DNA from: a virus
Strand: one strand, 5' to 3'
DNA: 41,641 nt
IMG/VR virus record: IMGVR_UViG_3300025154_000201
Location: 1 to 41,641 of that record
The notes beneath the pieces are model-generated. The model ran no database searches. It saw only the letters and a program-made list of their open reading frames with translations, and was not told where the DNA came from. The position numbers and the translations under genes were made by a program. The first letter of the stretch is position 1; every line of letters begins with the position of its first letter. Positions 6,914-41,478 of this stretch are shown here, one piece after another.

Positions 6914-6916
6914 GGT

Positions 6917-7337: not shown

Positions 7338-7452
7338 TTCGCTCCTGTTCCCAGAAGCCGTTTTTACAGTTGTCGCACCAGAGGCCCTTGGAAGGGCTGC
7401 ACAAGGCAGCCCTTCCGCAGTACGGGCACTGGCACTCGGTGCTACCGGCCAT
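7237..7452 (-). CDS. Zinc-ribbon protein overlapping its downstream neighbour
   Basis: A 71-residue ORF. The first half is a convincing C4 zinc ribbon (CPYCG ... WCDNCKNGFW). The second half overlaps the next zinc-binding gene by 101 bases in another frame and loses zinc-ribbon character, so the true product may be shorter, frameshifted or an overprinted gene. The coding sequence contains an 11-bp perfect hairpin at 7390-7416. The start overlaps the stop of the preceding gene by 11 bases. Confidence 0.45.
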   Translation of the reverse strand: MAGSTECQCPYCGRAALCSPSKGLWCDNCKNGFWEQERNVHSKMGDQCDQAKSALLLGVRAAAPRQPPRRG

Positions 7453-7936
7453 GGATGTTCTGGCTTACTCGCGGGCCACCAGTAAAGGTCTTCTCCTGTG
7501 GCGCTGCATTTGGCGCTGCATTTGGCACTGCCTTTGGCACCACCAAGACCAGTTGTTGGACGGGCAAATCCGACTCGTCTTGCGGTTTGCCGTCTTTGAG
7601 TTCTGCAGGAACCACAATAGCGGTGACACAGCCGCTGGCGTGCTCTATAAATCCAATGATACTTCCAGAGAAGTTGGTGACGGAATCTTTTACTTTGTCC
7701 AGCAACTGAAACGTGTGTTGTACAGGTGGCTCGGGTTTTATGAACTGCTTCTCAACAACCTCTAATACGGTTTCGTCAAACCAGTTGGATGCCTGTACAC
7801 TTCCGTCGTCCTTTAATTTCACTGGATCCAATCGAAAGCGGGCCACACTGAAAGCTTTGATGAAGCGGGCGCCAACGTAACCGGTAAAGCCCGTGAGTTT
7901 GTCCTTGGCCATGTCGCCCAATTCAATCCTATTCAT
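7442..7936 (-). CDS. Phage protein with two copies of a KDKxTGFxG domain
   Basis: A 164-residue protein built from two related halves: residues 1-63 (LGDMAKDKLTGFTGYVGARF ending in a VLEVVE strand) and about 75-135 (LLDKVKDSVTNFSGSIIGFI ending VQQLVLVV). This short beta-rich domain is common in uncharacterised phage early proteins. The C-terminus has a low-complexity PNAAPNAAP linker. No catalytic motif is seen. It lies next to the ligase gene, so a replication-accessory role is possible, but the function is unknown. Confidence 0.65.
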   Translation of the reverse strand: MNRIELGDMAKDKLTGFTGYVGARFIKAFSVARFRLDPVKLKDDGSVQASNWFDETVLEVVEKQFIKPEPPVQHTFQLLDKVKDSVTNFSGSIIGFIEHASGCVTAIVVPAELKDGKPQDESDLPVQQLVLVVPKAVPNAAPNAAPQEKTFTGGPRVSQNIHGR

Positions 7937-16633: not shown

Positions 16634-17076
16634 CCTTCCAACTCCTTTCTGACGTCCAGCATCAGGTCTTTGATGTCCGAATACCTCTTATACTCGTCGG
16701 TAACTTTTAGGCTCTTGTCGACCTTCTTGGCATCCTCGAGCGAAACAAAGATCCAGTAGGGTGCCTTAGCGTAACGGAAGTAGATACAGAACCCCGCCAA
16801 CCCCCCCGCCATAACAAACCTGGTCATCTTCGGCGTCTGGGTGAAGCGGGATGCCGGCACTCTGGTCTCGCTCTTGCTCTCCTTACACTCCAACAGCATC
16901 ATCGCCGAGCCGTCATACATCACTTCGTAATCGGCGGGCTGGGCAGGTACCCGGCCCATACAGACGCCGGCATCAGGGAATCGGTGCCCCCACCAGAGCG
17001 GGTCTTTCATCAGCTCCTTGAGGTGCTTTGTAAAAAGCCCCTCCGCTATTTTTCCGTCGCCACTTTGTCCCGCCAT
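16630..17076 (-). CDS. RecU-like Holliday junction resolvase (PD-(D/E)xK nuclease)
   Basis: A 148-residue protein with AAGGA about ten bases upstream of ATG 17076. The nuclease core is visible: Glu12 in the first helix, Asp49 in QPADY, and Glu63-Cys-Lys65 in LLECKESKS, followed by RFTQTPKMTRFV and AGFCIYFRY, a pattern of RecU/PBP-related factor A nucleases. It would resolve branched recombination intermediates and fits the neighbouring SbcCD and polymerase genes. Its start lies inside the end of the upstream small gene. Confidence 0.7.
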   Translation of the reverse strand: MAGQSGDGKIAEGLFTKHLKELMKDPLWWGHRFPDAGVCMGRVPAQPADYEVMYDGSAMMLLECKESKSETRVPASRFTQTPKMTRFVMAGGLAGFCIYFRYAKAPYWIFVSLEDAKKVDKSLKVTDEYKRYSDIKDLMLDVRKELEG

Positions 17077-17219
17077 GCCGCTGTATCCTTTTTTAAGAGG
17101 CCAATAATGTACTCACGAACAGAGAGTCCCTGCTCGTAAGCCTTGTGTTTCACCTTTCCCCACAGATCCCGATCAACATTTCTGAGGAGGAACGAGGTTG
17201 ATTCTTCCGTGTCTTTCAT
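17046..17219 (-). CDS. Small ribbon-helix-helix-like DNA-binding protein
   Basis: A 57-residue ORF from ATG 17219 to TAG 17046-17048, with GAGG upstream. The sequence TSFLLRNVDRDLWGKVKHKA, then a GLSVREYIIGLLKK helix, fits the strand-helix-helix pattern of Arc/MetJ-type proteins. It would bind DNA as a dimer and may regulate nearby genes. It overlaps the resolvase gene by 31 bases and its start overlaps the stop of the next upstream small gene (ATGA). Confidence 0.6.
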   Translation of the reverse strand: MKDTEESTSFLLRNVDRDLWGKVKHKAYEQGLSVREYIIGLLKKDTAAWRDKVATEK

Positions 17220-27594: not shown

Positions 27595-28013
27595 ATGAGC
27601 GGCTCCGGAGGATATAGATATCGTTCGTGTTTAGTGACAGCTTTTGGCACATGCCCCTCCACGGAACTGTGGGAGTCAAGCACTCGGAACAGCCACTCAC
27701 AATCAGGCTCGGACCTGCCATTCTGGTGCCGGCAGAACTTCTCCCAGGACACCTTCTCGAACTGCTCTCTGAACCGTGTGTTGTGTTTGCACTTGTTCCC
27801 GATCACGTTGGTATATGTCTTCGCGGCTTTGAGTGTGTTGGTGTCTGTAAGGGTTATGCCTGAGCCGATATGCAGCACCCGGAAAAAGCCACCGGTCAGT
27901 TCAACTATGCAGACTTGGTCCCCGTCGCGAACAGGCACTGCAGGTACCACTCGATACGGGATTCTCGGATGGGCGACAGTTATTTTCGGCAACGGCGGCT
28001 TTTTCGTCTGCAT
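27591..28013 (-). CDS. Hypothetical protein upstream of the primase
   Basis: A 140-residue protein read from ATG 28013, with GAGGA upstream. It overlaps the XRE regulator gene by 113 bases in another frame, an unusually long overlap. The sequence is mixed (CIVELTGGFFRVLHIGSG; KVSWEKFCRHQNG) with no recognised motif. It is coupled to the primase gene by ATGA. Confidence 0.55.
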   Translation of the reverse strand: MQTKKPPLPKITVAHPRIPYRVVPAVPVRDGDQVCIVELTGGFFRVLHIGSGITLTDTNTLKAAKTYTNVIGNKCKHNTRFREQFEKVSWEKFCRHQNGRSEPDCEWLFRVLDSHSSVEGHVPKAVTKHERYLYPPEPLI

Positions 28014-28194
28014 ATAGGAAGTCCTCTACGGTTACCTGGTTATTAGTAAGCTTGTGGATTAGCGCCAAATGGTATAGGGTGGGCTTAGCCAGTGCCCGTT
28101 CATACTTGCTGATCATGGTAGTATCAACCCCTATCACCGCGGCTACCTGTTTCTGGGTAATGCTATTGTCCTTTCTCCAGGAGCTAAGTTTCAT
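27901..28194 (-). CDS. XRE-family helix-turn-helix regulator
   Basis: A 97-residue protein. Residues 11-55 form a Cro/cI-type helix-turn-helix (ITQKQVAAVIGVDTTMISKYERALAKP). The C-terminal 40 residues have no fold signature and overlap the next gene. It heads the replication block and lies just downstream of a strong dyad (28229-28260), so it probably regulates this operon, perhaps through that dyad or the TAGGTCA palindromes. The target is inferred. Confidence 0.75.
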   Translation of the reverse strand: MKLSSWRKDNSITQKQVAAVIGVDTTMISKYERALAKPTLYHLALIHKLTNNQVTVEDFLYADEKAAVAENNCRPSENPVSSGTCSACSRRGPSLHS

Positions 28195-28755: not shown

Positions 28756-28840
28756 CTAACTTATAAAAAGTTAGAAAGGGGTCCTTTCGCCCCTCTAAAA
28801 TTAATGTAGATTTCCTGCTTCGCCGACGGCAGTTTCACAC
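28756..28840 (-). ncRNA. Putative omega-RNA / right-end element of tnpB copy 1
   Basis: The region after the tnpB stop is conserved with the second tnpB element (GAAGCAGGAA ... TACATTAA on the - strand) and is followed by two hairpins: AGAGGGG pairing with CCCC plus TCT, and CTAACTT/AAGTTAG. The GAAGCAGGAA phrase is typical of IS200/IS605- and IS607-group right ends whose RNA guides TnpB. The guide would be read from the bases just beyond 28756. Confidence 0.55.
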
Positions 28841-29983
28841 AGATAAGTTTGTGCCAGAGCTGCTATCTCCACAGGCTTGAAATCCCGAGAACCCCTCGGT
28901 ATAAGCTCTCAATCCTTCTACTTCTATTGTCTTAGCCGCGTGGAGGTCCCGATCCATGTCAGGGGTCCCACAGTCGCAACTGAACGTACGATTGCTCAGT
29001 GGCATTTCGTGCAGCTGCCCACAGTTCATACAAAGCTTCGTGCTCGGAAAAAATCTTCCTACAGTATGAACTCTGACCGCCTTATACTCCAGTTGGCGTC
29101 GGATCTCTGCGAAGGAACAGTCAGAGATAACCTTCGCCAACTTACGGTTTCTTACCATCCCGGCTACATTCAGATCCTCAATACAAATGTCTGAATAGTT
29201 AGTAGCCAAATAATGGGTCATCTTGTGGGTAGCATCTTTTCGGATGCAGCTGATTTTGTAATGGAGCTTGGTTAACTTTTCCTTAGCCTTCTTCCTGTTG
29301 TTGGATCCTTTCTTTTTCCTGGCCAAGGACTTATTGAGCCGACGCAACCTCACTTCATATGTTTTAGTGACTCTGGGGTTCTCAAACACAACCCCGTTTG
29401 ACAGCGTAGCCAGCTTGGTGACACCGAGATCCACACCAATAGAAGAATGTACTTGGTTATCGCTACACTCTTCCCCATCAGTTATGTTGACTGCGATTGA
29501 AGCGAACCAACCGGTTGCACCCTTTGAGACCACTGCTGACATGATCTTGCCCTGAAACCTAAGTGGCTCGGTCATCCGAACAATACCCAACTTGGGTATC
29601 TTGATATAATCTTCATGGATTGAAAATTTATCGTTAGGGATGTAGAATGAGTCTTTGACTCCTTTCTTTTTAAATCTAGGAAAACCAAGCTTCTTTCCTT
29701 GCTTCACATTCCTGAAGAAATTCTTGAACGCTCGATCCAGGTCATCAAAAGCTCGTTCAGGCGAGCACTTGGTGACTTCTGTGATCCAGGGGAACTCTTG
29801 CCTCTTTATAGCATTAAACTGCTTCTTCAGCCCAAAAGCTGAAGGCTTCCCACCCGCTTCGTACTGCCGCACCCACTCCGCCAAGCCCCAGTTGTAAGCA
29901 AGCCTTGCGCACCCGCAAGCCTTAGCAAAATAGGTAGCTTGCGCGTTATTTGGATTCAGGCGGATCTTGTGGCTTCTTTGCAT
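28835..29983 (-). CDS. tnpB: TnpB RNA-guided nuclease, copy 1
   Basis: A 382-residue protein. RuvC-type catalytic residues are in order: Asp185 in IGVDLG, Glu269 in CIEDL, and DRD at 344-346. A zinc finger has CMNCG at 318-322 and CDCG at 336-339. The usual DRDxNAA motif reads DRDLHAA, with His in place of Asn. TnpB proteins are programmable nucleases guided by RNA from the element's right end and promote element retention. The start overlaps tnpA by 28 bases. The protein appears intact. Confidence 0.9.
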   Translation of the reverse strand: MQRSHKIRLNPNNAQATYFAKACGCARLAYNWGLAEWVRQYEAGGKPSAFGLKKQFNAIKRQEFPWITEVTKCSPERAFDDLDRAFKNFFRNVKQGKKLGFPRFKKKGVKDSFYIPNDKFSIHEDYIKIPKLGIVRMTEPLRFQGKIMSAVVSKGATGWFASIAVNITDGEECSDNQVHSSIGVDLGVTKLATLSNGVVFENPRVTKTYEVRLRRLNKSLARKKKGSNNRKKAKEKLTKLHYKISCIRKDATHKMTHYLATNYSDICIEDLNVAGMVRNRKLAKVISDCSFAEIRRQLEYKAVRVHTVGRFFPSTKLCMNCGQLHEMPLSNRTFSCDCGTPDMDRDLHAAKTIEVEGLRAYTEGFSGFQACGDSSSGTNLSV

Positions 29984-30570
29984 TTCCGCCCACCGCGTCG
30001 CCCGTAGAGCCGGGCGGAAAAAGAGGCAATCAGAGCCACCACATCCTCAGCGAACTCCTGTTCGAACTCAACCGATTCCTTTGTCTGAAGAACGTCGACC
30101 TCGACCCCCAGCGACTCACAGTAACCTTTAAAAGTCTCAAAGCCATAACGGCTTAGACGATCCTTGTACTCAACCACCACGCAGGACACGTCGGGATCCG
30201 GAAGCCTCTTCAGCAACTTTTTAAACTGCCTCCGATTTTCATTCAACCCACTACCAATGTCCTTGTACAGCTCGGTGTTTTCGTACGTTGAACTGGCGTA
30301 CTCAAGAAGTCGGCCGACCTGTCTCTCAAGGTTGTCCGCCTGCTTCTGCGTTGAACACCTCGCATACACAAGTGCAGTCCTACGGGCTACACTTCCGACC
30401 CGGGCCTCGACCTCCGACAGTGGCACTCGTCGTTGGTTACCTTCGGACCTAACGGTCTTTATCTTCCCCGCCCGATCCCAATCCCGGATGGTTTGAGTGG
30501 TCACCCCCAGCCTTTTTGCGGCCTCTGACAACCGCAGAAGCGTAGTCGTAGTGCTCTTGGAACTCTTCAA
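29956..30570 (-). CDS. tnpA: IS607-family TnpA serine recombinase
   Basis: A 204-residue protein from TTG 30570, which has GGAGGAG seven bases upstream. Residues 11-50 are a MerR-type helix-turn-helix (LRLSEAAKRLGVTTQTIRDW). The resolvase domain follows with the nucleophile Ser73 in YARCSTQKQ and a later YKDRLSRYGFETF, the IS607 layout. It catalyses transposition through a circular intermediate. It overlaps a small ORF upstream and tnpB downstream. Confidence 0.9.
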   Translation of the reverse strand: MKSSKSTTTTLLRLSEAAKRLGVTTQTIRDWDRAGKIKTVRSEGNQRRVPLSEVEARVGSVARRTALVYARCSTQKQADNLERQVGRLLEYASSTYENTELYKDIGSGLNENRRQFKKLLKRLPDPDVSCVVVEYKDRLSRYGFETFKGYCESLGVEVDVLQTKESVEFEQEFAEDVVALIASFSARLYGRRGGRKCKEATRSA

Positions 30571-31314: not shown

Positions 31315-31905
31315 TTAATGTCTGTCAAAGACTACAGCCATCCCCGGCTGCAGCGCGTCCCAACATTTGTAGTCGCATTGTCCGCAGTGACCAGGACAGC
31401 GAAGGTGGATCTTATGCAGTGGCGCCCTGGAGTCCTCGGCAAGGAAAGCTTTCGGGAAGTCTTCAAACTTCTCCTCCGGAAAGGCGAGCCCCGGCCACAC
31501 AGAAATCACGATCGTGAGGTTGGCCGGCTTCTCGCTGAAGTCCAGGTCGTAACGCTTGGTAAAGCAAAGAAACTTGGTGGTCGGAAACAACTCGGCAAAC
31601 CCGAGGACGTCGTCGGCGTATGCTTGGTCGACAATATCGCCGCCGACGTGCCAGCGAAACAGCCGGGGGTGGTTGCTCTGCAGCCACGCCCACAACTCAT
31701 ACGAGAACGCCTCGGGGTCGCCCCGCCACAGCGCGAGGTTGCCGTCCCACGCCGTTCGCACATTCGGGTACATCCGGTACGCCTTCATAGCGTAACAGCC
31801 GTCGCCAAAGCAGGGCACACACGGGGCACAACTGAGGCCAGGCGGCAGGGAAATGTTAGGCACAGCACCGATCTTGCTGTTGCCTTCACTTATCATTAGT
31901 TTCAT
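31315..31905 (-). CDS. GP88-like cysteine-rich phage protein
   Basis: A 196-residue protein with AGGAGGAGC upstream of ATG 31905. The N-terminal NSKIGAVPNISLPPGLSCAP then CVPCFGDGCYAMKAYRM, and a C-terminal CPGHCGQCDYKCW, match the phage gene-product-88 family, which carries conserved cysteine clusters that could bind metal. The biochemical role of the family is not established. A TAGGTCA palindrome lies 21 bases upstream of the start. Confidence 0.65.
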   Translation of the reverse strand: MKLMISEGNSKIGAVPNISLPPGLSCAPCVPCFGDGCYAMKAYRMYPNVRTAWDGNLALWRGDPEAFSYELWAWLQSNHPRLFRWHVGGDIVDQAYADDVLGFAELFPTTKFLCFTKRYDLDFSEKPANLTIVISVWPGLAFPEEKFEDFPKAFLAEDSRAPLHKIHLRCPGHCGQCDYKCWDALQPGMAVVFDRH

Positions 31906-31925: not shown

Positions 31926-31940
31926 TAGGTCACTGACCTA
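31926..31940. promoter_or_regulatory. TAGGTCA palindrome, site A
   Basis: TAGGTCA-C-TGACCTA, a perfect 7-bp inverted repeat. On the - strand its first three bases are the TAG stop of the gene ending at 31938, and the next start (31905) is 21 bases away. Confidence 0.8.
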
Positions 31941-32237
31941 CAGTATTCTAATTACTTGCATTTTCTGCGCGATGTACCACATGCCGCCCTGATGCTCCGG
32001 GCGCTTGAATTCGTAGAAGTCGTCGAACTCTACTTCGGCCCACACCCGCCCATCCATCTTCAGGTGGGCGGCATGCGGGGAATTGGTGATATGCCAGCCC
32101 GGTCTGTGGGCGTAGCCTTTGGTGGGGTGGTCCTCGGCCTGCAGCTCGACCCCGATCGGGATTACCTGCCTGGCGTTGATAAACAGAGGGCCGAGAGTTC
32201 CATTCCTTCTTTGACGCAGGAGCTTATAGCCAATCAT
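31938..32237 (-). CDS. Conserved small phage protein
   Basis: A 99-residue protein whose ATG 32237 overlaps the preceding stop (ATGA). The sequence GYKLLRQRRNGTLGPLFINA ... AEDHPTKGYAHRPGWHITNS ... GRVWAEVEFDDFYEFKRPEHQGG belongs to a family I recall from many phage genomes without known function. Its stop codon TAG is part of palindrome site A. Confidence 0.65.
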   Translation of the reverse strand: MIGYKLLRQRRNGTLGPLFINARQVIPIGVELQAEDHPTKGYAHRPGWHITNSPHAAHLKMDGRVWAEVEFDDFYEFKRPEHQGGMWYIAQKMQVIRIL

Positions 32238-32494
32238 TCGTCGTCCTCCCACTCAGTATCCTCTTGTTTCACCTCGACGCTGACCATATGTTGGACCTGA
32301 AGCTCAAACTGAACCCCGCAATCCACACACTTCAAATCACCGCGCTTCCCGTCCTCCTGCAGGTCGGCAACCACCGCCAGCGGCGCCCTAGCCAGAGTGT
32401 ACTTATTCAAACTGCACGGTCCTGCTTTGCTTTGAAAAATATTGACGCGGCCACAGCGAGGGCAGGAAATTTTCACATAGTCGAACATACCCAT
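32234..32494 (-). CDS. Zinc-ribbon protein
   Basis: An 86-residue protein; ATG 32494 gives the best spacing to GGAGGT, with ATG 32497 as the alternative. CPRCG near residue 11 and CVDCG near 57 form a C4 zinc ribbon split by about 40 residues. The C-terminus is acidic (QEDTEWEDDE). Possible nucleic-acid or protein adaptor; function unknown. Confidence 0.6.
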   Translation of the reverse strand: MGMFDYVKISCPRCGRVNIFQSKAGPCSLNKYTLARAPLAVVADLQEDGKRGDLKCVDCGVQFELQVQHMVSVEVKQEDTEWEDDE

Positions 32495-32850
32495 CATTTA
32501 CCTCCGATAGGAAAAGGTTTGCACTCCAGGAAGTTGACAGCCCGCTTAAGGGCGAGGTCGTGGGCCCGGGAGGACATATCATTGCGAGCGCAGATCGCCA
32601 GCAACACCTTCAGATCCACAACGATAGAGTCGACCTCCTGGTCCTCCAGGGTGTGGTTGTCCTCGTCCGCGTCAGTGATGCCGTCAAGGAGGTGGAGGAC
32701 GCCATCGAGCGCAAGCATCTCTTCATCCTCCGGCGCCCGATACTCCATATTGTCTACCATATTTCGGCACTCTGCCCGGACTTTCACAAGGGCGGCTTTC
32801 TGCTTCCTCAACAACTCGATATCTACATTCTTCAGTACTAAACTTTTCAT
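32494..32850 (-). CDS. Hypothetical early protein beside the second tnpB element
   Basis: A 118-residue, mainly helical protein from ATG 32850, with AGGA upstream. It has a basic first helix (ELLRKQKAALVKVRAECRNM) and an acidic centre (TDADEDNHTLEDQEV). No family is recognised. The right end of the second tnpB element lies about 20 bases upstream of its start. Confidence 0.55.
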   Translation of the reverse strand: MKSLVLKNVDIELLRKQKAALVKVRAECRNMVDNMEYRAPEDEEMLALDGVLHLLDGITDADEDNHTLEDQEVDSIVVDLKVLLAICARNDMSSRAHDLALKRAVNFLECKPFPIGGK

Positions 32851-32868
32851 CTCAGTCCTGGTTCCTTT

Positions 32869-32945
32869 AACTTACAAAAACTTGCAAGTTCGAAGTTTAA
32901 TGTAAAGTTCCTGCTTCAACGTCAGAAGTTTCACTTGATGCAAAT
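32869..32945 (-). ncRNA. Putative omega-RNA / right-end element of tnpB copy 2
   Basis: After the tnpB stop the - strand reads GAAGCAGGAA ... TACATTAA as in copy 1, followed by a perfect AACTTGCAAGTT palindrome (32879-32890) and an AAGTTA end. This is the position of the TnpB guide RNA scaffold; the guide would be read from bases just below 32869. Confidence 0.5.
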
Positions 32946-32946
32946 C

Positions 32947-34050
32947 TCAAGTCAGAGCTTCCAACTCCACAGGCTTAAAATTCGGCAAACCCTGCCGTAT
33001 TCCTTCTAAAAGAATATTCCTAGCAGCATTGAGGTCCCGGTCCACTGGACCGAAGCCGCAGTCACATTCAAAAGTTCTTTTAGACAAGGGCATCTTATTC
33101 AATTGGCCACAGTTTGAACAGAGTTTGGTGGAAGGAAACCACCTACTCACTTGGATGACCTTATCTACTTTATACAGAAGTTGTCTCTTTATTTCCCCAA
33201 AGGAAGCATCAGCCAGAGACTTGGCTAAGTTCTTATTCTTCATCATGTTCTTACTACTGAGATCTTCTATACAGACACCAGAATAGTTCTTGGAGACTGT
33301 AGAAGTCATCTTATGAATGTCATCAGCCCGAACACAGGATATTTTATGGTGAAGTTGACCCAACTTCTCTTTCGCTTTCTTCCAATTTTCCGAACCTTTC
33401 TTCTTCCTGGCTAAGGATTTGTTTAGCCTTCTCAACCCTTTCTCATACTTCTTGGTTGTTTTTAGGTTTTCAAAGACTGTGCCATCGGAAAGAGTAACCA
33501 GTTTGCTTATACCTAAGTCAATCCCAACTAAGCCTCCAGATTGGTTTTCTCTGGGGACTTCACCAAGATCTACTGAGAAGGAAGCAAACCACTTTCCTAC
33601 TTTTTTTGAAATAACAACAGAGTTGATTTTGCCTAAGAACCTTACTGGCTCTGTTATTTTAACCCAGCCGAGTTTGGGAATTTTGACTTTATTCCCATCC
33701 AGTTTCAGGACACTTCCGGAAATATAAAAAGAATCATGGACTCCCTTCTTTTTAAATTTTGGGTAGCCTTTCTTCTCCTTGAAGAACTTCTGGAAAGCCT
33801 TATCAAGATTAGCAAAAGCTCTCTCTGGAGCCCATTTAGTCACCTCAGCCACAAAAGGGAATTCAGTTCTCTTTATTGAGTTGAATTCCTTTTTCAGGCC
33901 AAAGGAGGACGAGGCGATCCCTGCCTCATACCTCTCCTTCCACCTGCCTAAAGCCCAGTTGTAGGTAAACCTAGTTACCCCGGCACACTTGGAGAAGTAG
34001 GTGGCCTGCTTGTTATTTGGACTTAGTCTTATTTTGTGACTTCTTCGCAT
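32947..34050 (-). CDS. tnpB: TnpB RNA-guided nuclease, copy 2
   Basis: A 367-residue paralogue of tnpB copy 1, related along the whole length (both begin with SHKIRLxPNNxQATYF). RuvC residues appear intact: Asp in GIDLGIS, Glu in VCIEDLS, Asp in DRDLNAA (canonical Asn present). The zinc finger has CSNCG and CDCG. Downstream of these the C-terminus ends shortly after the last RuvC motif, as usual. The start at 34050 overlaps the zinc-ribbon ORF by 38 bases. It is probably an active nuclease. Confidence 0.88.
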   Translation of the reverse strand: MRRSHKIRLSPNNKQATYFSKCAGVTRFTYNWALGRWKERYEAGIASSSFGLKKEFNSIKRTEFPFVAEVTKWAPERAFANLDKAFQKFFKEKKGYPKFKKKGVHDSFYISGSVLKLDGNKVKIPKLGWVKITEPVRFLGKINSVVISKKVGKWFASFSVDLGEVPRENQSGGLVGIDLGISKLVTLSDGTVFENLKTTKKYEKGLRRLNKSLARKKKGSENWKKAKEKLGQLHHKISCVRADDIHKMTSTVSKNYSGVCIEDLSSKNMMKNKNLAKSLADASFGEIKRQLLYKVDKVIQVSRWFPSTKLCSNCGQLNKMPLSKRTFECDCGFGPVDRDLNAARNILLEGIRQGLPNFKPVELEALT

Positions 34051-34156
34051 AGTCCTTATTCCAGTACGGCGAGGTGCATTTAGGGCATTTTACAGGTAGT
34101 TTCTCCTGTCTTTTGATCCATTCATGACCACATCTTTTACAATTTAGTTTTTCCAT
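34013..34156 (-). CDS. Small zinc-ribbon protein upstream of tnpB copy 2
   Basis: A 47-residue ORF from ATG 34156 to TAA 34013-34015. It has a clear C4 zinc ribbon: CKRCGHEWIKRQEKLP then CPKCTSPYW, followed by a Lys-rich tail. It overlaps tnpB in another frame, just as tnpA does in the first element. GGAGG lies 12 bases upstream, slightly far. The layout suggests that it belongs to the element. Confidence 0.6.
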   Translation of the reverse strand: MEKLNCKRCGHEWIKRQEKLPVKCPKCTSPYWNKDYAKKSQNKTKSK

Positions 34157-34162
34157 TCCTTC

Positions 34163-34190
34163 ACTATACCTCCATCATGGAAGAAGTCAA
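34163..34190 (-). promoter_or_regulatory. Sigma-70-like promoter of tnpB element 2
   Basis: On the - strand TTGACT (34190-34185), 16 bases, TATAGT (34168-34163). Both this and the promoter of the first element are preceded by CTTA and have the identical TATAGT, supporting a shared left end. Confidence 0.5.
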
Positions 34191-34226
34191 TAAGAAAACT
34201 GATCAAATTCTCCCTAAGTTTTATAG

Positions 34227-34254
34227 GTTTTTATAAGTTATTTGGTAGCTGCTT
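34227..34254. repeat. 28-bp identical repeat at tnpB left flank, copy 2
   Basis: Exactly identical to 30693-30720. It includes the last codons and stop of the gene at 34238 and the adjoining TTATAAAAAC sequence. Confidence 0.85.
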
Positions 34255-34768
34255 TTACCTCCTTTATATCGTCAACGTGGCCTTCGCAGACGAAGGAAAC
34301 GAAGAAGTCAGTATCGAGCGTGGCGTTAAGTTCAGAAACAGCCTCACGGCGGGCCTCGGCTACGGCCTCTTTCACATTTACGGCGTCGACCTGGGCGAGG
34401 AATGTTTCCTGTCCGTAGTCATCCGCCAAGTAGTCCGGCAACACCAACAGCACCGTATACGGCTTGGGGTCCACCACAGGGAGCCGGTACAGGACTTTGA
34501 AGATGTCGCGCATATCTTTGAAGTTATCGAACGACACAATAGCAGTATCAGAAAGTACCCCCAAAATAACGTGGGCAGACTCCAACATCCTCGGCGTCAC
34601 TGTAGGAGTGGTAGCGAGGGCCTGCTCAATGCCTTTGACTACGGCCTTTCTAGCCACAGTCACGGGATGGTTGTTGCCTTGAGGAGCTTGCTCATAATCG
34701 TAGAATATGTCACCCATCGCAGCCACAGTAGCTTTCGCCAACTGGTCAATCTCACTTTTTGTCAGCAT
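34238..34768 (-). CDS. Hypothetical early protein
   Basis: A 176-residue protein; ATG 34768 is chosen for AAAGGAG upstream. It is alpha/beta, with a helical first half (KSEIDQLAKATVAAMGDIFY) and a C-terminal half containing KPYTVLLVLPDYLADDYG. No motif is recognised. Its C-terminal codons (AATK) match those of the gene at 30704, so its true 3' end may have been replaced when the element arrived. Confidence 0.55.
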   Translation of the reverse strand: MLTKSEIDQLAKATVAAMGDIFYDYEQAPQGNNHPVTVARKAVVKGIEQALATTPTVTPRMLESAHVILGVLSDTAIVSFDNFKDMRDIFKVLYRLPVVDPKPYTVLLVLPDYLADDYGQETFLAQVDAVNVKEAVAEARREAVSELNATLDTDFFVSFVCEGHVDDIKEVKAATK

Positions 34769-35159
34769 TTCTTTTCTCCTTTCTGTCAATGCTGTACAGA
34801 AACGCCGAGAGGTCGTCGTCGGCATCGATGAGTTTTCTGAGGTTATGCTCCTGTGATTGGTCAGGCGTGCAGTCCCAGTCGTTAGTGGACATCGCCCTGG
34901 AAAGCTCAAGCAACCGCATCAGGACCTTCTCGGTTGTATCCTCCTCCGCTTCTTCCTTGGCTACACCTAAGGCGTAGCCTTGCTCCTCCGGACTTGGATA
35001 ACAAACTATGCAGGGCTCAGGGACAAGTACCAGATCGTTAGTGCCGCTGTGATGAGGAGAGACCTTGTAATCTATCCCCAAACCACAATTGGCGCAGACC
35101 ATCTCCACCCCGGAGACGGTCTCATCAGCCGACGTTTTAGCTCTTTCAAACCTATCCAT
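34752..35159 (-). CDS. Hypothetical protein with CxxC pairs
   Basis: A 135-residue protein from ATG 35159, which overlaps the preceding stop as TGATG with GAGGTGAAG upstream. CANCG and CIVCYP (about residues 22-55) form a likely zinc-binding site. The C-terminal half is acidic and helical (AKEEAEEDTTEKVLMRLLEL). No family is recognised. Confidence 0.55.
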   Translation of the reverse strand: MDRFERAKTSADETVSGVEMVCANCGLGIDYKVSPHHSGTNDLVLVPEPCIVCYPSPEEQGYALGVAKEEAEEDTTEKVLMRLLELSRAMSTNDWDCTPDQSQEHNLRKLIDADDDLSAFLYSIDRKEKRNADKK

Positions 35160-36013
35160 CACTTCACCTCGTAATCAAAAGGAAAATCTTTCAAAAGCTC
35201 ACGCAAATCCACGGCACCCTCCTTGGTATAGGGCTCACGCCAACCAAAGCAGAACTTATCCGTATGCGAGTAGTAGATGACGTTGTCCAACTCTCGAAAC
35301 TTGTGGTCAAGCAGCCAGGTATAGGCCGTGGTCTTCTTCTCGGCCTCAAAGATAAGGGCGCCGGCTTTCACCTGCGCCTCCGAGACCAGGGCTGCGACTT
35401 TCTTCCTGGCCTTGGAGAGCGCGAACTGGCTTTCTGCTTGAAGATACTCCGTATATAAGTCGTTATCCGGTGTACCCGCAACACCCCCCCACAAATCCCC
35501 TATCTGTCGTTTGAGAATATCAGCCGATTTGTGTAGTGAGTTCTCTCCGAACGGCAACCTACAATTACGGAAGGTCTCTAAATTTTCTTCGGTAACAAGA
35601 GAAAACTCCTCCCACAACCAACAGTCTCTGCTACTGAATGTTACGCGAAACTTCCCTTCATGGATTTGGATATTGTGAGGTAGTGGTGCCAATCTTTTGC
35701 GGAGTATCTGGTCACAACAATTTGCCACTTTCCAGCTTTCCCCGCGGGTATTCTCAAACGGCGCCGGCGTGGACCCTGGATGCCAGTGCCCAACAAAATA
35801 ACTTGCCCGAGACAACTCGGCTATTTGCTTTGTCGTTAGCGCTTCTATAATCTCCATAATTGCCTGTGTCATTGGGATGTCGAGCGCCCTGTTCTGTTGC
35901 AGCTCACTCACAAGCGGACAAAGTTCAGAATGAGCTGACCTCACCTCATGTGGTTGGTTTTCAAACGCTGGTAACGCTTGCGTGAAGTATGCTTTTTTGT
36001 AGTTAAAATTCAT
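35159..36013 (-). CDS. Hypothetical early protein, 284 residues
   Basis: Starts at ATG 36013 with the AAAAGGAGC site and the ACGACA spacer seen before several genes here. A helical, Ala-rich segment (ALSKARKKVAALVSEAQVKA, about residues 198-217) may form a coiled coil. The rest has no recognised motif. A TAGGTCA-type palindrome lies 25 bases upstream of its start. Confidence 0.55.
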   Translation of the reverse strand: MNFNYKKAYFTQALPAFENQPHEVRSAHSELCPLVSELQQNRALDIPMTQAIMEIIEALTTKQIAELSRASYFVGHWHPGSTPAPFENTRGESWKVANCCDQILRKRLAPLPHNIQIHEGKFRVTFSSRDCWLWEEFSLVTEENLETFRNCRLPFGENSLHKSADILKRQIGDLWGGVAGTPDNDLYTEYLQAESQFALSKARKKVAALVSEAQVKAGALIFEAEKKTTAYTWLLDHKFRELDNVIYYSHTDKFCFGWREPYTKEGAVDLRELLKDFPFDYEVK

Positions 36014-36037
36014 TGTCGTTGCTCCTTTTGATTATTA

Positions 36038-36052
36038 TAAGTCAGTGACCTA
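36038..36052. promoter_or_regulatory. TAGGTCA palindrome, site B
   Basis: TAAGTCA-G-TGACCTA, one mismatch in one arm. It lies between two - strand genes, 25 bases upstream of ATG 36013. Unlike the other sites it does not supply the upstream gene's stop codon (which is at 36063-36065). Confidence 0.7.
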
Positions 36053-36062
36053 TTGATCCTTG

Positions 36063-36272
36063 CTACAGCTCAGCGATGAACTTCTCGGACGATTCCTCAT
36101 CCAGCCCGCAGAACCACCGGCTGAAATCACGTTGCATCAACTGCCATTTCTCCTTGAGGTAATTCTCATGCTGGCCTTCCTCGCCGAAAAAGGCACAGAA
36201 CTCATCGTAGTCCATATTGTAGGCCTTGACACAGGCATTACGGACAAGCTTTGCTTTCTCTCTTGTGTTCAT
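36063..36272 (-). CDS. Small hypothetical protein
   Basis: A 69-residue, charged, helical protein from ATG 36272, with GAGGAGG upstream and an ATGA overlap with the previous gene. Aromatic residues are frequent (NMDYDEFCAFFGEEGQHENY). No domain is recognised. Confidence 0.55.
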   Translation of the reverse strand: MNTREKAKLVRNACVKAYNMDYDEFCAFFGEEGQHENYLKEKWQLMQRDFSRWFCGLDEESSEKFIAEL

Positions 36273-37240
36273 TGTCGTGCCTCCTCAATTTTGTGTTCAA
36301 CCCATTCCCAGTAGCCCAGGTTGGTACTCCACTCACTGACATCATCAACCCAATCAACCCGAGGAAATTCTGGGTATTCTCCCCAGACATCATCCTTCAC
36401 CCTACAGATCAAAGTGTGGGCGTCGGCGTCTTTCAGATAGGTGTTCGTGATGTAGCAGTACAACCGGTGCGCGATCTCGGACAGCGACTTGCCCTCCCGC
36501 TCCTCGGCGCTCAGGACCTTCTCAGCCCAGTCCCTCACATATTCAGTAAGGCCGTCCAGAACTGGAGCTTCCAAGAAATCCTGTAGCTCCTTCTTGGTCA
36601 ACACGCTCAACGCCATGTGCCAGGCGGCGTCCTTGGCCTCCTGCAGGCAGTAGTCCTCTTCTCCAATGAAGCCACAGCATGAATCGGACTCTCCAATCTG
36701 GGTATCGTCGGCATCATACAGGGCAACATTGTATTGGTAAATCTCGCCGGCCAGGTAGTGGTTGTAGACCCTGATGTCCTGGTTGAGGCGTTTGGCCAGG
36801 ACGGCTTTGGCCTCGTCGACCTTGCCCTCGGCAGCGAGGTCGTGGTACTGCTTGATAACATCGCTGTCCGCATCCAGGTGCGGGGAGATAAAGCCGACAA
36901 TCGGGCTGACGTCCCAGCGACGGTCAGGGAAGTTGCCAGACCTGCAGAGAGCAAGTACATCGCCGCTGTGACTGTACTGCTCAAGGCCCATGTAGAGGTT
37001 GCCGTCATAGTCCTTCAGGACCTCACCGCCGAGGGCAGCCTTCACAGCACCGTCGTCACTGTAAAGTGGCTGGGCTTCATCCCATCCCTTGCCGGACATA
37101 AAAGTGCAGAAACTGGCCTGATCGTCAAACACATTGATTGAGGCCATATCCATATCCCTGGTCGGGTCCTGGGCGAATTCGTCCCGCTCGACCTCGATCT
37201 CGAAGTACATTCCTCGTACCAACTCGATTCTCTCTGTCAT
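36269..37240 (-). CDS. Hypothetical early protein, 323 residues
   Basis: ATG 37240 is preferred over 37249 because it restores the AAAAGGAGC spacing and the ACGACA-ATG start context shared by other genes here. The sequence is acidic throughout, with a recognisable EIYQYNVALYDADDT ... DSCCGFIGEEDYCLQEAKDA region that occurs in other uncharacterised phage proteins. No catalytic motif was identified. The acidic, surface-like composition could suit a DNA mimic or inhibitor, but this is speculation. Confidence 0.55.
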   Translation of the reverse strand: MTERIELVRGMYFEIEVERDEFAQDPTRDMDMASINVFDDQASFCTFMSGKGWDEAQPLYSDDGAVKAALGGEVLKDYDGNLYMGLEQYSHSGDVLALCRSGNFPDRRWDVSPIVGFISPHLDADSDVIKQYHDLAAEGKVDEAKAVLAKRLNQDIRVYNHYLAGEIYQYNVALYDADDTQIGESDSCCGFIGEEDYCLQEAKDAAWHMALSVLTKKELQDFLEAPVLDGLTEYVRDWAEKVLSAEEREGKSLSEIAHRLYCYITNTYLKDADAHTLICRVKDDVWGEYPEFPRVDWVDDVSEWSTNLGYWEWVEHKIEEARQ

Positions 37241-37261
37241 TGTCGTCATGCTCCTTTTGTA

Positions 37262-37287
37262 AGCGAGGACGACTATTCGCCCTCGCT
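37262..37287 (-). terminator. Hairpin after the RdgC-like gene
   Basis: AGCGAGG and CCTCGCT form a 7-bp stem around a 12-base loop, eight bases after the stop at 37295. There is no T-run on the - strand, so it may be an attenuator or an RNA-stabilising hairpin rather than a full terminator. Confidence 0.35.
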
Positions 37288-37294
37288 TTTGTTG

Positions 37295-38191
37295 TTAGAT
37301 GGACTCTTCAACCCACCCATGCATTCCGGACAAGTCCGCTCCGAGGTATTCCTGGTACTCGGCGTGGACGGCGTCAACCAGCTCAGTGATGAGGTGGATC
37401 CGCTCCAGGACCAAGCCGTCATCGATATCCCCGGCGGCGGCCACGGTCGGCAGCTTCATCCCTTTAAAGACCATCACGTCAGGTACGAGTGTGCAGACGC
37501 CCTTGCCGTCGACCTTGATCTGGGCTTGGGAGATCTTCTTACCTAGGGCCAGGGCCTTGAACGCTTCCGGGCCCCCGGCACAGACTACCTGTTGTTCGGG
37601 GCCTTCCCCGATCACCATCCTGCCGGCAATGCTGATCTCCTCCGACTGCCACCACGCCCAGGCCAGGAAGTCCTCGTTACGCTCGTGCTCGATCACAGTG
37701 AGGTCCCCGCCGAACGTCTCAGAGAACAGCTCCAGAAAGGAATCCATAGGGCTGCCCGGGGCACCAAGGAAAAAGAGCCGGTGATCATGAACGCGCCATA
37801 CTGCCTCAAAAGTAGCTGAAGTGGGCCTGGCTTTTCGCAGCAACTCAATCTGGATCCGTGCCTTGATCTCGATATGAGAGGCTCGGCTGAGTTTAGGGAC
37901 TTGTTTCTCCTGCATCACCCGGCGAATCTCCTTGGCGACCAGTTTTTTTAGTACGGCTCCCGGGACCGTCCGTTTGTCAACCCGCATCGACAGCACAACA
38001 TATTCACCAAGCACCTGGGATGGCGCCGAGGTGTCAAACATATCCGACGGGTTCACCCAGCCGACCGAGAACTCGTCGTAGCTGTCGTCGATGTCCATGA
38101 AGAGGTGTTCGCGTACCTGCTTGTCGTCGAAAACAACTTCTGCAGGGACGACCAACTCAATAAGATTTACTGCTCCTTTTAGTAACGGCAT
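37295..38191 (-). CDS. RdgC-like recombination-associated protein
   Basis: A 298-residue protein with AAAAGGAG upstream of ATG 38191. The order of elements resembles RdgC: an N-terminal FSVGWVNPSDMFD segment, YVVLSMRVDKRTVPGAVLKK, a helical EIRRVMQEKQVPKLSRA, and KARIQIELLRKARPTSATFE followed by a wall of strands (RVHDHRLFFLGAPG). RdgC forms DNA-encircling rings that modulate RecA. The match was made by eye and is moderate. In a phage it could control recombination. Confidence 0.5.
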   Translation of the reverse strand: MPLLKGAVNLIELVVPAEVVFDDKQVREHLFMDIDDSYDEFSVGWVNPSDMFDTSAPSQVLGEYVVLSMRVDKRTVPGAVLKKLVAKEIRRVMQEKQVPKLSRASHIEIKARIQIELLRKARPTSATFEAVWRVHDHRLFFLGAPGSPMDSFLELFSETFGGDLTVIEHERNEDFLAWAWWQSEEISIAGRMVIGEGPEQQVVCAGGPEAFKALALGKKISQAQIKVDGKGVCTLVPDVMVFKGMKLPTVAAAGDIDDGLVLERIHLITELVDAVHAEYQEYLGADLSGMHGWVEESI

Positions 38192-38219
38192 AATACTCCT
38201 TTTAATTGTTGGGTTTTGA

Positions 38220-38242
38220 GCCTGAAATTGTGGTCTTCAGGC
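38220..38242 (-). terminator. Hairpin overlapping a stop codon
   Basis: GCCTGAA and TTCAGGC form a 7-bp stem with a nine-base loop, spanning the stop codon of the gene at 38237. The - strand tail TCAAAACCC has no T-run, so strength is doubtful. Confidence 0.35.
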
Positions 38243-38512
38243 CGGATTACTACAGCGTCTGCCCAGGTCGATAAAGCCAGCCTGTCTCAGCCAGTCGACC
38301 GTGATGTGGGGTGGGGTCGATTCGTGATCGCGCAACACCTCACCACTCTCGGCGGCGAACTTCCGGCAGCATCGATACAGCCTGCCATCTGAACCACGCC
38401 CGCCCCGGTCCCCAGCCTTCTCCACATATACATCTTCTTTACCTACCCGGGAGACATAACAAGAAGGGCCTCTCTTTATTAACCACTTGGCTCCGTTGTG
38501 TTCAAAGTACAT
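38237..38512 (-). CDS. Small hypothetical protein
   Basis: A 91-residue protein with AGGAGC upstream of ATG 38512. It is basic and glycine-rich in the middle (KAGDRGGRGSDGRLYRCCRK) and could bind nucleic acid. No known domain. Palindrome site C lies 17 bases upstream. Confidence 0.55.
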   Translation of the reverse strand: MYFEHNGAKWLIKRGPSCYVSRVGKEDVYVEKAGDRGGRGSDGRLYRCCRKFAAESGEVLRDHESTPPHITVDWLRQAGFIDLGRRCSNPA

Positions 38513-38528
38513 CGCGGCTCCTGTAGGA

Positions 38529-38544
38529 TAGGTCAGTTGACCTA
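38529..38544. promoter_or_regulatory. TAGGTCA palindrome, site C
   Basis: TAGGTCA-GT-TGACCTA, perfect arms with a two-base centre. On the - strand its first three bases are the TAG stop of the gene ending at 38542; the next start lies 17 bases on. Confidence 0.8.
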
Positions 38545-38808
38545 TTGAATTGTCCGGAAACTACGGCGGGCATTACCAATCTTCTCAACCACAGGCCTGT
38601 CGATATTGCCGCCGGCGTTGTGCTTCACCCGGGCCTTGTTGCCGCTGAGGATCTTGTTCCCGCTTTTGGCCTCTTTGGCGCAGAAGCAGCGGTAGCAGAG
38701 ATCCGCGGACGGCTTTCTATCCAGGACGTTCTGTTTGATGTGGCGGTCACAACCAGGGGTGCTGCACTTCTTGGTGGACAGATTATTATAACGATGCGCT
38801 TTCTTCAT
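38542..38808 (-). CDS. Small zinc-finger protein
   Basis: An 88-residue protein with AAGGAG upstream of ATG 38808. It has KKCSTPGCDRHI and LCYRCFCAKEA, giving a C4-type zinc site, and a basic tail (NKARVKHN). A nucleic-acid-binding or adaptor role is plausible. Its stop is part of palindrome site C. Confidence 0.6.
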   Translation of the reverse strand: MKKAHRYNNLSTKKCSTPGCDRHIKQNVLDRKPSADLCYRCFCAKEAKSGNKILSGNKARVKHNAGGNIDRPVVEKIGNARRSFRTIQ

Positions 38809-38841
38809 TGTTCTTTTCTCCTTCGTGGTTTGTTTATGGAA

Positions 38842-38871
38842 GGAACAGGGCAGAGTCGACCGCCCTGTTCC
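38842..38871 (-). terminator. Hairpin terminator after 38880-39818
   Basis: A 10-bp perfect stem (GGAACAGGGC / GCCCTGTTCC) with a ten-base loop, nine bases after the stop at 38880. It is GC-rich but followed only by TTCC on the - strand. Confidence 0.5.
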
Positions 38872-38879
38872 ATTAATTG

Positions 38880-39818
38880 TTACAGTTCCCTGGCGTACCA
38901 GGTGCAGTCGCCGTCCGGGCTGCAGACCTGGACCTCGGCGACGGTGTACTTCCTGCCCTCGTCGTCATTTTCATAGTCAGGCTCAGCTACTACCCAATCG
39001 ATTGTTGGAGACCGAAGGACCCCGCCGGCTGCCTCAACCAAGCGCTGGAGGTGTTGCAGTTCCTTCAGCTCTTCCAAGGTAGGGCGTTTTTTCGCCACCC
39101 CGCCGTGGTTGCCGCGCTCATACCCGTCCGGGGCGTGGTCGTCCTGGTACTCCCGCTGGGCGACCGACACCCAATCCCCGGCCTGCAACTCAAGCATCAG
39201 GTGCAGCCGCTCAGATCCGTGGTCTAACGCCCAGGCTTTTAAGGCAGCAAGTCCTGCAACTCTTTTTTGGAGACGCTCCGCTTCAGCTTTTTCCTCCGCC
39301 TCCCGCCTCGCGGCGACCTCTCTGCTCTTCTTGGCCGTAACCATGGCTGCAATTGCCCGGGCCCGTCCGGCCACCCTTGGGTCCTTACAGATCTCAGACA
39401 GCTCTTCAGACGGCACATTAAACCACGTAGGTGACGGGCTGGAGTAATACTCTGTCCAAGCGGCGCACAGCTCCTCGTCGGTTGACGATTCAAACTTCTC
39501 TACCGCGGCCTCAATCCTGGCTTTCTTCTGTACTGCTTGCTCAGCCAGGCTCCGGACCCGACTTCGCAACACTTTCCGGATCGATTCGACCGAGGCGTCG
39601 ACCACCGGGTCGACCACGGCGGAGCCGAGGCCGTAGTAGGGGTCGAGGTGGTATTCGCCGCCCCAGCTGTTCACCGGCAGCGCCGCCACAATCGCCAGCT
39701 CTTCCTGGGTCAACTCCGCGACCGGAATTTCGACTACGGCGGTGCCGTACTCCATTTTGCCTGCGAGGATTGCCAGCTTCTGGTCGATCCTTACGAACAT
39801 CTTTGAAGTCTTCATCAT
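38880..39818 (-). CDS. Hypothetical protein with coiled coil
   Basis: A 312-residue protein with AAAGGAGC seven bases before ATG 39818. Residues 75-110 and 150-200 are Ala/Lys/Glu-rich and probably coiled coil (KKSREVAARREAEEKAEAER). The C-terminal domain (DWVVAEPDYENDDEG ... EVQVCSPDGDCTWYAR) looks like a small beta fold. No known family is recognised. A KVV-leader-like sequence (AAAGTAGTA ... GGCAACCG) precedes it. Confidence 0.55.
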   Translation of the reverse strand: MMKTSKMFVRIDQKLAILAGKMEYGTAVVEIPVAELTQEELAIVAALPVNSWGGEYHLDPYYGLGSAVVDPVVDASVESIRKVLRSRVRSLAEQAVQKKARIEAAVEKFESSTDEELCAAWTEYYSSPSPTWFNVPSEELSEICKDPRVAGRARAIAAMVTAKKSREVAARREAEEKAEAERLQKRVAGLAALKAWALDHGSERLHLMLELQAGDWVSVAQREYQDDHAPDGYERGNHGGVAKKRPTLEELKELQHLQRLVEAAGGVLRSPTIDWVVAEPDYENDDEGRKYTVAEVQVCSPDGDCTWYAREL

Positions 39819-39905
39819 AATACGCTCCTTTACGACTTTTGCCGCAGTCGTAGCGGTTGCCGGAGTGCCGCCCGGCTCGGGTTACTACTTTGGTTTTGGG
39901 GGTGC

Positions 39906-40181
39906 TTACAACATTCCGAAAAAGTTACAAAGCCGCTGCAGGAACAGATACGACTTGAGGCTGCAGCGATACGCCTGAGGATAGCCGCGGCGAAGTTCCC
40001 AATCGTAGGCAAGGGCGTAAATTTTGTTCGCCATGGCCTTTTCAGCCAGGGTAAAATTCTCAGATTCCCAAGCCCTCTTACCCTTACCGAACTTCCGCTT
40101 GTCCCACTGCTCGACGATCACGCCGCAGCCCATGACCTTGAGTTCGTCGCCTGTTACCTCATACGTCAGAATTGGTTTCAT
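39906..40181 (-). CDS. Small hypothetical protein
   Basis: A 91-residue protein; ATG 40181 is chosen because GGGGGAG lies upstream and ACGACA precedes it, as in neighbouring genes. The sequence has an N-terminal beta part (ILTYEVTGDELKVMGCGVIV) and a helical, tyrosine-rich C-terminus. Function unknown. It overlaps the upstream small gene by 23 bases. Confidence 0.55.
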   Translation of the reverse strand: MKPILTYEVTGDELKVMGCGVIVEQWDKRKFGKGKRAWESENFTLAEKAMANKIYALAYDWELRRGYPQAYRCSLKSYLFLQRLCNFFGML

Positions 40182-40335
40182 TGTCGTTATCTCCCCCACC
40201 TAAGTGAATAGAATTGTCTGCCCAGAAAGCGCAGTCTTCACATAACTGGGATGGTTCTTTCCAAGTAAATAAGACTGTGCCGCCCCCGCCAGAACAGAGA
40301 AATGGAATAAGTTTTACCTCAGACTCAGGCCCCAT
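40159..40335 (-). CDS. Small protein with CxxC, 58 residues
   Basis: An ORF from ATG 40335 with GAGAGGG upstream, starting two bases after the previous gene's stop. Residues 32-35 are CEDC in a segment LCEDCAFWADNSIHL, and Cys14 precedes a Gly-rich stretch. It fills what would otherwise be a 155-base gap in the operon. Function unknown. Confidence 0.5.
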   Translation of the reverse strand: MGPESEVKLIPFLCSGGGGTVLFTWKEPSQLCEDCAFWADNSIHLGGGDNDNETNSDV

Positions 40336-40336
40336 A

Positions 40337-40849
40337 TCACCCTCTCAAATACGCCGGCCCATACGGACCCATATGCTTCAGGCCATTGTGCTCATCAAAG
40401 ATGTTGCCACGGGCGTGCTTGGCGGGGGTCTTCCAGCTCGCGGCCTTCAGCATATCCCCATTGGTCTTGTCGATAAAGCAGTAAGCCGAGGTGTCCCGGA
40501 CGACCTTGATGTAGCGTTTGCCTTCGTCGCTGCGAAAGGCGGGGGCGGCAAGGCTGTGGGGATTGTTCTGCTGGAAGTTGTCGTCCGAGACCTTCTTGCA
40601 GCCGGCAAGAAAAGTTATAAACTCCGGTGTAGCTAGGGTAACTGTGGGCATTATTCCGCTCCTTTTATTTGTTTGTTTGATTTCGGCCATAACCTCAGCC
40701 ATGTGCTCCTCGGGGATTTCGATACGGATTTCGTCATGTCGCACATAACAAACCCCGCCGTACTTCTCCGCTATGGCCTGGATCGCTATTGTCTGTTCCT
40801 GCATAAGCTTCGCGGCAGTCATTTGTTGTTTCAGCATTGCCTGGTTCAT
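40337..40849 (-). CDS. Two-part early protein with internal ribosome site
   Basis: A 170-residue frame. Residues 1-60 are a helical domain with YVRHDEIRIEIPEEHM. Residues 67-170 (MPTVTLATPEFITF ... RYIKVVRDTSAYCFIDKTNG ... HARGNIFDEHNG ... MGPYGPAYLRG) match a small protein found alone in many phages. Between them a perfect AAAAGGAGC ribosome site and ATG 40651 are translated in frame as KRSGI. The second domain is therefore probably also made separately, or the two genes fused by loss of a stop. Confidence 0.6.
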   Translation of the reverse strand: MNQAMLKQQMTAAKLMQEQTIAIQAIAEKYGGVCYVRHDEIRIEIPEEHMAEVMAEIKQTNKRSGIMPTVTLATPEFITFLAGCKKVSDDNFQQNNPHSLAAPAFRSDEGKRYIKVVRDTSAYCFIDKTNGDMLKAASWKTPAKHARGNIFDEHNGLKHMGPYGPAYLRG

Positions 40850-40867
40850 TATAGTTTGCTCCTTTTA

Positions 40868-40882
40868 TAGGTCAGCGACCTA
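40868..40882. promoter_or_regulatory. TAGGTCA palindrome, site D
   Basis: TAGGTCA-G-CGACCTA, one mismatch in the arms. Its first three bases on the - strand are the TAG stop of the gene ending at 40880; ATG 40849 follows 19 bases on. Confidence 0.75.
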
Positions 40883-41200
40883 GCCATCAGCTACGCCTTT
40901 CTCAAAATTTTTATAAGTCACCATCATCTTAACCCTGCTCTTTGCCAGCCAGGTGTGGTGCGCCGCCAACGTCTCGTCCGCCTCGAACCGGCAGATCCGG
41001 GCCGGAACAAACGGCTCGGTCACGACCCCGACCGCGGCGTAAGCCTCGACGTGGTCCTTGTTGAATTGGTCCAGCTCCTGTTGGGCTTGGATAAGCACCG
41101 GGCCTGGCTGGCGACTCGTCTGAAACAAGGACCAACCGATAATCTTGATCCTTTCCCCGACAAGCAGCCCCACCCCGTAGATCTTTTTAGTAGGCGGCAT
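40880..41200 (-). CDS. Hypothetical early protein
   Basis: A 106-residue protein with AAGGGGG upstream of ATG 41200. Sequence elements include GVGLLVGERIKIIGWSLF and a C-terminal TWLAKSRVKMMVTYKNFEKG; no known motif. It overlaps the upstream gene by 14 bases and its stop is part of palindrome site D. Confidence 0.55.
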   Translation of the reverse strand: MPPTKKIYGVGLLVGERIKIIGWSLFQTSRQPGPVLIQAQQELDQFNKDHVEAYAAVGVVTEPFVPARICRFEADETLAAHHTWLAKSRVKMMVTYKNFEKGVADG

Positions 41201-41453
41201 ATTGCCCCCTTATTACCTGCTCGTGCCAGATCGAGCAGTCATTGATCTTTAAGCCCCGCTTGACTTCGGCGGCGGCATCCTGGGCGGGGGTCTCCTGTTC
41301 GCCCACGACCTCGATTAAGGCGCTGCGATCGTGCCACAAACGAGACAGCTTCACCTCCGGATGTCGCCCTTGCATATGGTCGAGCATACGCAGGGCCTCC
41401 CTGTTCTTGTCCTGGTCAGCCGCAAGGTTGACCACTATCGCGATTTTGATCAT
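41187..41453 (-). CDS. Hypothetical early protein
   Basis: An 88-residue protein with AAGGAGG just upstream of ATG 41453. It begins MIKIAIVVNLAADQDKNREA, a beta-alpha start, and has no recognised motif. Palindrome site E lies 11 bases upstream, so the palindrome abuts the ribosome site. Confidence 0.55.
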   Translation of the reverse strand: MIKIAIVVNLAADQDKNREALRMLDHMQGRHPEVKLSRLWHDRSALIEVVGEQETPAQDAAAEVKRGLKINDCSIWHEQVIRGQYAAY

Positions 41454-41463
41454 CGATCCTCCT

Positions 41464-41478
41464 TAGGTCACTGACCTA
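41464..41478. promoter_or_regulatory. TAGGTCA palindrome, site E
   Basis: TAGGTCA-C-TGACCTA, perfect 7-bp arms. On the - strand the first three bases are the TAG stop codon of the partial gene running off the right edge. The Shine-Dalgarno of the next gene follows directly. Confidence 0.8.

Follow-up and report, generated by a model that had tools for sequence, protein, structure and literature searches.

A short palindrome preceding early genes of an uncultured phage as a candidate distributed operator

Operators of XRE/Cro-type phage regulators are palindromic, lie in promoters and are autoregulated. Inverted repeats associated with gene starts were recognized in phages by 2011 and, to our knowledge, no function has been agreed upon. 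The ESAS of cluster K mycobacteriophages are inverted repeats located before the SD and starts of a subset of non-structural genes (PMC3203893, PMC12699233). Their arms are imperfect 17-mers separated by spacers of 4-13 bp, mostly in gaps above 50 bp, and they usually stand beside the 13-bp SAS GGGATAGGAGCCC, which overlaps the RBS (PMC3203893, PMC12699233). Upstream stop codons can fall inside the repeat (PMC3203893). A hairpin was judged unlikely and a DNA-binding protein preferred, with the function unproven (PMC3203893, PMC12699233); Pope et al. considered a position so near the ribosome site hard to explain by an operator alone (PMC3203893). The stoperators of cluster A mycobacteriophages (L5 repressor) are asymmetric 13-mers recognized by the monomeric immunity repressor of a temperate phage, and their orientation is essential (PMC9283540). 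Many near-identical sites are found genome-wide in short intergenic gaps, where they were proposed to stop elongating polymerase (PMC9283540).

The window considered here is the whole of IMG/VR virus record IMGVR_UViG_3300025154_000201 (41,641 nt), from an uncultured phage. Comparison with cultured phages yielded no near DNA match and distant protein matches only. The window encodes a family A DNA polymerase, an SNF2/DEAD helicase, SbcCD-like proteins, a thymidylate synthase, a primase/helicase-like protein (named after distant phage matches) and many unknown early proteins. The early block is non-structural and tightly packed, 6.2 % of 30.7-41.64 kb being intergenic, and its genes carrying the sites described below are on the minus strand. 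A first-pass annotation had reported five sites with the same inverted repeat, TAGGTCA-N-TGACCTA, without giving the strand of the genes. All five coordinates stood, and full identity did not: of the sites, which follow TAGGTCA-N(1-2)-TGACCTA, two were perfect 15-mers, one was a perfect 16-mer with a longer spacer and two displayed one mismatch. The sites and the genes behind them are as follows.

41464..41478, minus strand: site 1, TAGGTCAGTGACCTA, perfect; stop codon of the upstream gene is TAG 41478-41476; SD AAGGAGG abuts the palindrome; ATG at 41453
41187..41453, minus strand: gene behind site 1, 88 aa, no family
40868..40882, minus strand: site 2, TAGGTCGCTGACCTA, one mismatch; TAG 40882-40880 ends gene 40880-41200; SD AAAGGAG; ATG at 40849
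40337..40849, minus strand: gene behind site 2, 170 aa, C-terminal part DUF7717
38529..38544, minus strand: site 3, TAGGTCAACTGACCTA, 16-mer with perfect arms and a 2-nt spacer; TAG 38544-38542 ends gene 38542-38808; SD AGGAG; ATG at 38512
38237..38512, minus strand: gene behind site 3, 91 aa, no family
36038..36052, minus strand: site 4, TAGGTCACTGACTTA, one mismatch; upstream stop separate, at 36065-36063; in-register TATAAT behind the palindrome, followed by SD AAAAGGAG; ATG at 36013
35159..36013, minus strand: gene behind site 4, 284 aa, phrog_26133, unknown function
31926..31940, minus strand: site 5, TAGGTCAGTGACCTA, perfect; TAG 31940-31938 ends gene 31938-32237; SD AAAGGAGGAGG; ATG at 31905
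31315..31905, minus strand: gene behind site 5, 196 aa, GP88 family

Each ATG had a good SD. Palindrome and ATG were separated by 10, 18, 16, 24 and 20 nt at sites 1 to 5, respectively, which agrees with the annotated 11-25 bases once these are counted to the A of ATG. As also annotated, the TAG of the palindrome was the in-frame stop codon of the preceding gene at four of the five sites, 36052-36038 being the sole one not fused with a stop. The gaps carrying the sites measured 22-49 nt, and the SD regions (AAGGAGG, AAAAGGAGC, CAGGAGCC and AAAGGAGGAGG) had no 13-mer in common.

Scans with the primase-like protein, the polymerase, the 36269 protein and an early protein of G001 retrieved two relatives only, G001 and G008. 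The former (49.5 kb, of which viral locus L006 is a part) is a close relative, matching most proteins of window positions 1-16 kb with 82-100 % identity. It displayed two further sites at the head of its early block, which is divergent from the structural genes; both lie some 30 nt ahead of its first start codons.

48220 in G001: site 1, TAGGTCACTGACCTA
48358 in G001: site 2, TAGTTCACTGACCTA, with an arm mismatch

All seven sites known in this lineage are thus start-associated, and their restriction to the early block, first noted for the window, was also true of G001. One end of the window overlaps G001, and we infer that the remaining ends of the two records face the same unsequenced gap; the known sites would therefore start with the first gene of the early block and extend into it from there. 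Both records appear to lack part of the block. The third relative, G008, has a polymerase 76 % identical and does not reach the early block; its lone weak palindrome match fell in a stretch aligned to structural genes of G001. The divergent region of G001 upstream of its first palindrome (L006 5945-6090) also contains two near-copies of GATTATCAAAAAANAGTTTTTCAAAAAATTGGGT and, just before that palindrome, a terminator-like hairpin with a TTTTTT end. An RdgC-like gene occupies 37295-38191 in the early block of the window. In G008 its counterpart separates the SbcD-like from the SbcC-like gene and seems to be broken into two ORFs (L039 about 6625-7764).

Like ESAS, the seven sites are inverted repeats placed immediately before the starts of non-structural genes, with a stop codon within the repeat at four of the five window sites. 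They differ by their 7-bp, near-perfect arms, their spacers of 1-2 bp and the short gaps that hold them in the window; no SAS (GGGATAGGAGCCC) accompanies them and there is no sequence relation. Arm length, spacer and absence of SAS consequently place them outside ESAS. With stoperators they share near-identical repeats in short intergenic gaps, but the palindrome is symmetric and no integrase was detected in the three related records. With XRE/Cro operators they share a 15-bp odd-centred palindrome, an identical copy of which precedes XRE genes in two other phages; unlike these operators, they occupy internal gene junctions lacking canonical promoters and do not precede the XRE gene of the window (27901-28194). 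The window sites may thus work like ESAS or stoperators while belonging to neither, and represent a known kind of arrangement in unusually compact form. A short near-perfect palindrome with a testable XRE link offers a cleaner system for settling whether such repeats act as DNA or RNA.

Grouping every arm-7 inverted repeat of the window by its arms gave these five sites, and no others, as the largest same-arm family. In 200 second-order Markov nulls the maximal same-arm family was two (170 times), three (29 times) or four (once). Stretches up to 45 nt upstream of minus-strand starts make up 9.0 % of 30.7-41.64 kb and include all five sites. The scan proposed in the first-pass annotation, allowing up to two mismatches, uncovered no other site in the window and the two further ones in G001; with up to three mismatches a single additional match appeared in the window, at 14183. 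The motif was not scattered inside genes and was present in a close relative, contrary to what the first-pass annotation had named as refuting. The exact 15-mer occurred in four copies in 379 bacterial genomes (roughly 2 Gb), and the palindrome was found at 26 loci, L006 included, in 2.9 million viral contigs. A small copy number is all that speaks for chance or a compositional artefact as origin of the family; with a family size above all 200 nulls, every copy at a gene start, such a rare background and recurrence in G001, the probability of this explanation is negligible. A literature search with the exact palindrome gave 14 hits, mostly nuclear-receptor work and no bacterial or phage paper. 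A more general phage signal was also sought: the half-site pattern combined with an SD was present in 40 viral contigs versus 78 for the reversed-half-site control, which indicates no database-wide enrichment, and many of these matches were coding or resembled ordinary hairpins.

In an unrelated phage (L023), TTGACT and TATATT stand 17 bp apart before a gene for a 57-aa XRE protein, and the exact palindrome fills the spacer between them (TTGACT-N17-TATATT); the SD and ATG of the next gene are preceded by another exact copy. In another phage (L026), of which the part compared showed no DNA similarity to the window and one protein at 32 %, the exact palindrome is followed by an SD and a gene for a 100-aa XRE/HTH_3 protein; its TAG ends an upstream ORF of 46 codons. 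Two bacterial MAG contigs (L080 and L082) harbored the exact palindrome between a pair of divergent genes, of which one looked TetR-like by eye. In L082 it is flanked by TTGACA and TATTTT, in the 17-bp register seen in L023. Judged from these contexts, the MAG copies suggest that a TetR-type regulator uses this sequence as its operator, and the palindrome outside the lineage looks like a transcription operator that may serve regulators of different families. No tie to the palindrome emerged for XRE proteins in general: 12 additional XRE relatives, drawn from other genomes and phages, had no close upstream match, which limits the XRE link to the two phages above. An unrelated viral contig (L025, 130-200) displayed three consecutive GTCATTGAC cores before a small gene in an operator-array-like arrangement, the last core being the exact palindrome.

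Two proteins of the window came into consideration as regulators.

27901..28194, minus strand: XRE/HTH_3 protein, candidate regulator
17046..17219, minus strand: ribbon-helix-helix-like protein, second candidate as assigned in the first-pass annotation; also present in G008

Family models gave no confirmation of the ribbon-helix-helix assignment, and the palindrome precedes the start of neither candidate gene. No integrase (PF00589) was found in the window record (G000), G001 or G008, which look like fragments and include a small XRE protein; this absence speaks mildly against a lysogeny repressor.

We consider it fairly probable that the palindromes are distributed operators, predicted to be bound by a dimeric DNA-binding protein that regulates the early genes. 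A homodimer, probably with a helix-turn-helix of the XRE kind, would bind the palindromes on DNA. Its operators would be spread over the early block in the only free DNA, namely between the stop codon of one gene and the SD of the following one, gaps so short that TAG doubles as stop codon at four junctions; a regulator site could in this way be fitted into a nearly gapless operon. The bound protein would hold back RNA polymerase, either at nearby promoters or, as a roadblock, during read-through, and the genes behind each site would be switched as a set. The five same-arm copies, against a null maximum of two to four, reveal a shared sequence and not merely a shared shape, and the copies in L023 and L026 precede XRE genes, one of them at a promoter position. 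TATAAT (36038) and TATAAA (40868) follow the palindrome in the register seen in L023, but no in-register -35 hexamer was encountered at the window or G001 sites, so that these do not correspond to a plain operator-in-promoter as in L023. For the same reason either the regulator would block passing polymerase or weak or activator-dependent promoters would overlap the sites. Against the operator reading stand the lack of a site before either candidate regulator of the window, an XRE link drawn from two phages, and one spacer of 2 nt instead of 1 nt, which a rigid dimer might not accept and which RNA would accommodate more easily. The closeness to the ribosome site is, as for ESAS, hard to explain by an operator alone.

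In a rival reading the palindrome would act as an mRNA hairpin of 6-7 bp with a loop of 3-4 nt directly before the SD, coupling translation of two genes either through a protein that binds it or through melting by a ribosome stopping at the UAG of the 5' arm. Such an element would have the SD close behind its 3' arm and, at four of the five window sites, UAG in its 5' arm; 1- and 2-nt spacers would serve equally well as loops, and both window mismatches turn into G-U pairs on the mRNA strand. When the gaps were folded in isolation, the palindrome hairpin was the best fold at each of the five (-4.8 to -8.7 kcal/mol); with flanks included, it was lost from the MFE at several of them and z-scores were ordinary (-1.07 to +0.96). 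No compensatory change was seen among the seven sites, which are so nearly identical that they supply no covariation for a covariance model, and the arm mismatch of G001 site 2 (TAGTTCACTGACCTA) breaks an RNA pair. Strong hairpins with 12-bp stems and no U-run (z about -5) do occur in two other early gaps shortly before the SD, at 37261-37288 and 38842-38871, and are possible mRNA processing or stability elements. They may be counted in favor of RNA structure in this block, but their unrelated sequences imply that a hairpin alone needs no fixed sequence, and identity among the palindromes is much stricter than a hairpin requires. The palindrome of L023, moreover, sits in a promoter spacer, upstream of the expected transcript. 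On balance the pattern of conservation points to selection on the sequence itself and hence to a protein that reads it, and the hairpin reading is unlikely. Among the functions proposed in the first-pass annotation (operators, RNA hairpins near the ribosome site, or cassette borders), operators were thus the best supported and the hairpin fared poorly on folding; the former are preferred because the same sequence is repeated, covariation is lacking and the L023 copy lies inside the promoter spacer of an XRE gene. A combined use of the junction, in which the palindrome would serve as upstream stop, as operator and as upstream edge of the next ribosome site, appears rather unlikely; if true, read-through transcription as well as translational coupling would be set by one bound protein at many junctions within the early operon.

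It is quite improbable that the sites belong to an activator or to phage-specific promoters, in which the palindrome would replace the -35 element and polymerase would be positioned on a TA-starting -10 hexamer overlapping the palindrome end. Besides the two hexamers given above, TATTTT and TATTTA (G001) and TATCCT, TAGAAA and TAAGGA occur in this register, as do -10-like hexamers in L023 and L082. The fit is nevertheless uneven (TAAGGA at 41464) and accompanied by no -35, transcripts would begin within or just before the SD, and a promoter scan of the region gave only a modest excess (13 versus 8.8 +/- 3.4). Borders of exchangeable gene cassettes, whether recombination or homing sites, would account for the exact position at gene borders and for the differing location of RdgC in the window and G008. 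None of the relatives found, however, had the block with a different filling between sites, the RdgC gene of G008 is without palindrome, and each site stays close to the next start, a spacing that a recombination site does not need; cassette borders are therefore highly improbable.

Three other features of the early block concern individual genes. Within gene 40337-40849, the DUF7717 part may begin at an internal ATG (40651); as this codon has its own AAAGGAG, the ORF may specify two overlapping in-frame products. An apparent IS607-type insertion, assigned by eye, occupies 28835-30570 inside the block and comprises two overlapping genes, one TnpB-like (28835-29983) and one serine-recombinase-like (29956-30570). 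A second TnpB-like gene, at 32947-34050, has no adjoining recombinase gene; over several stretches it resembles the first copy at 73-78 %, in its flanks as well as in coding DNA.
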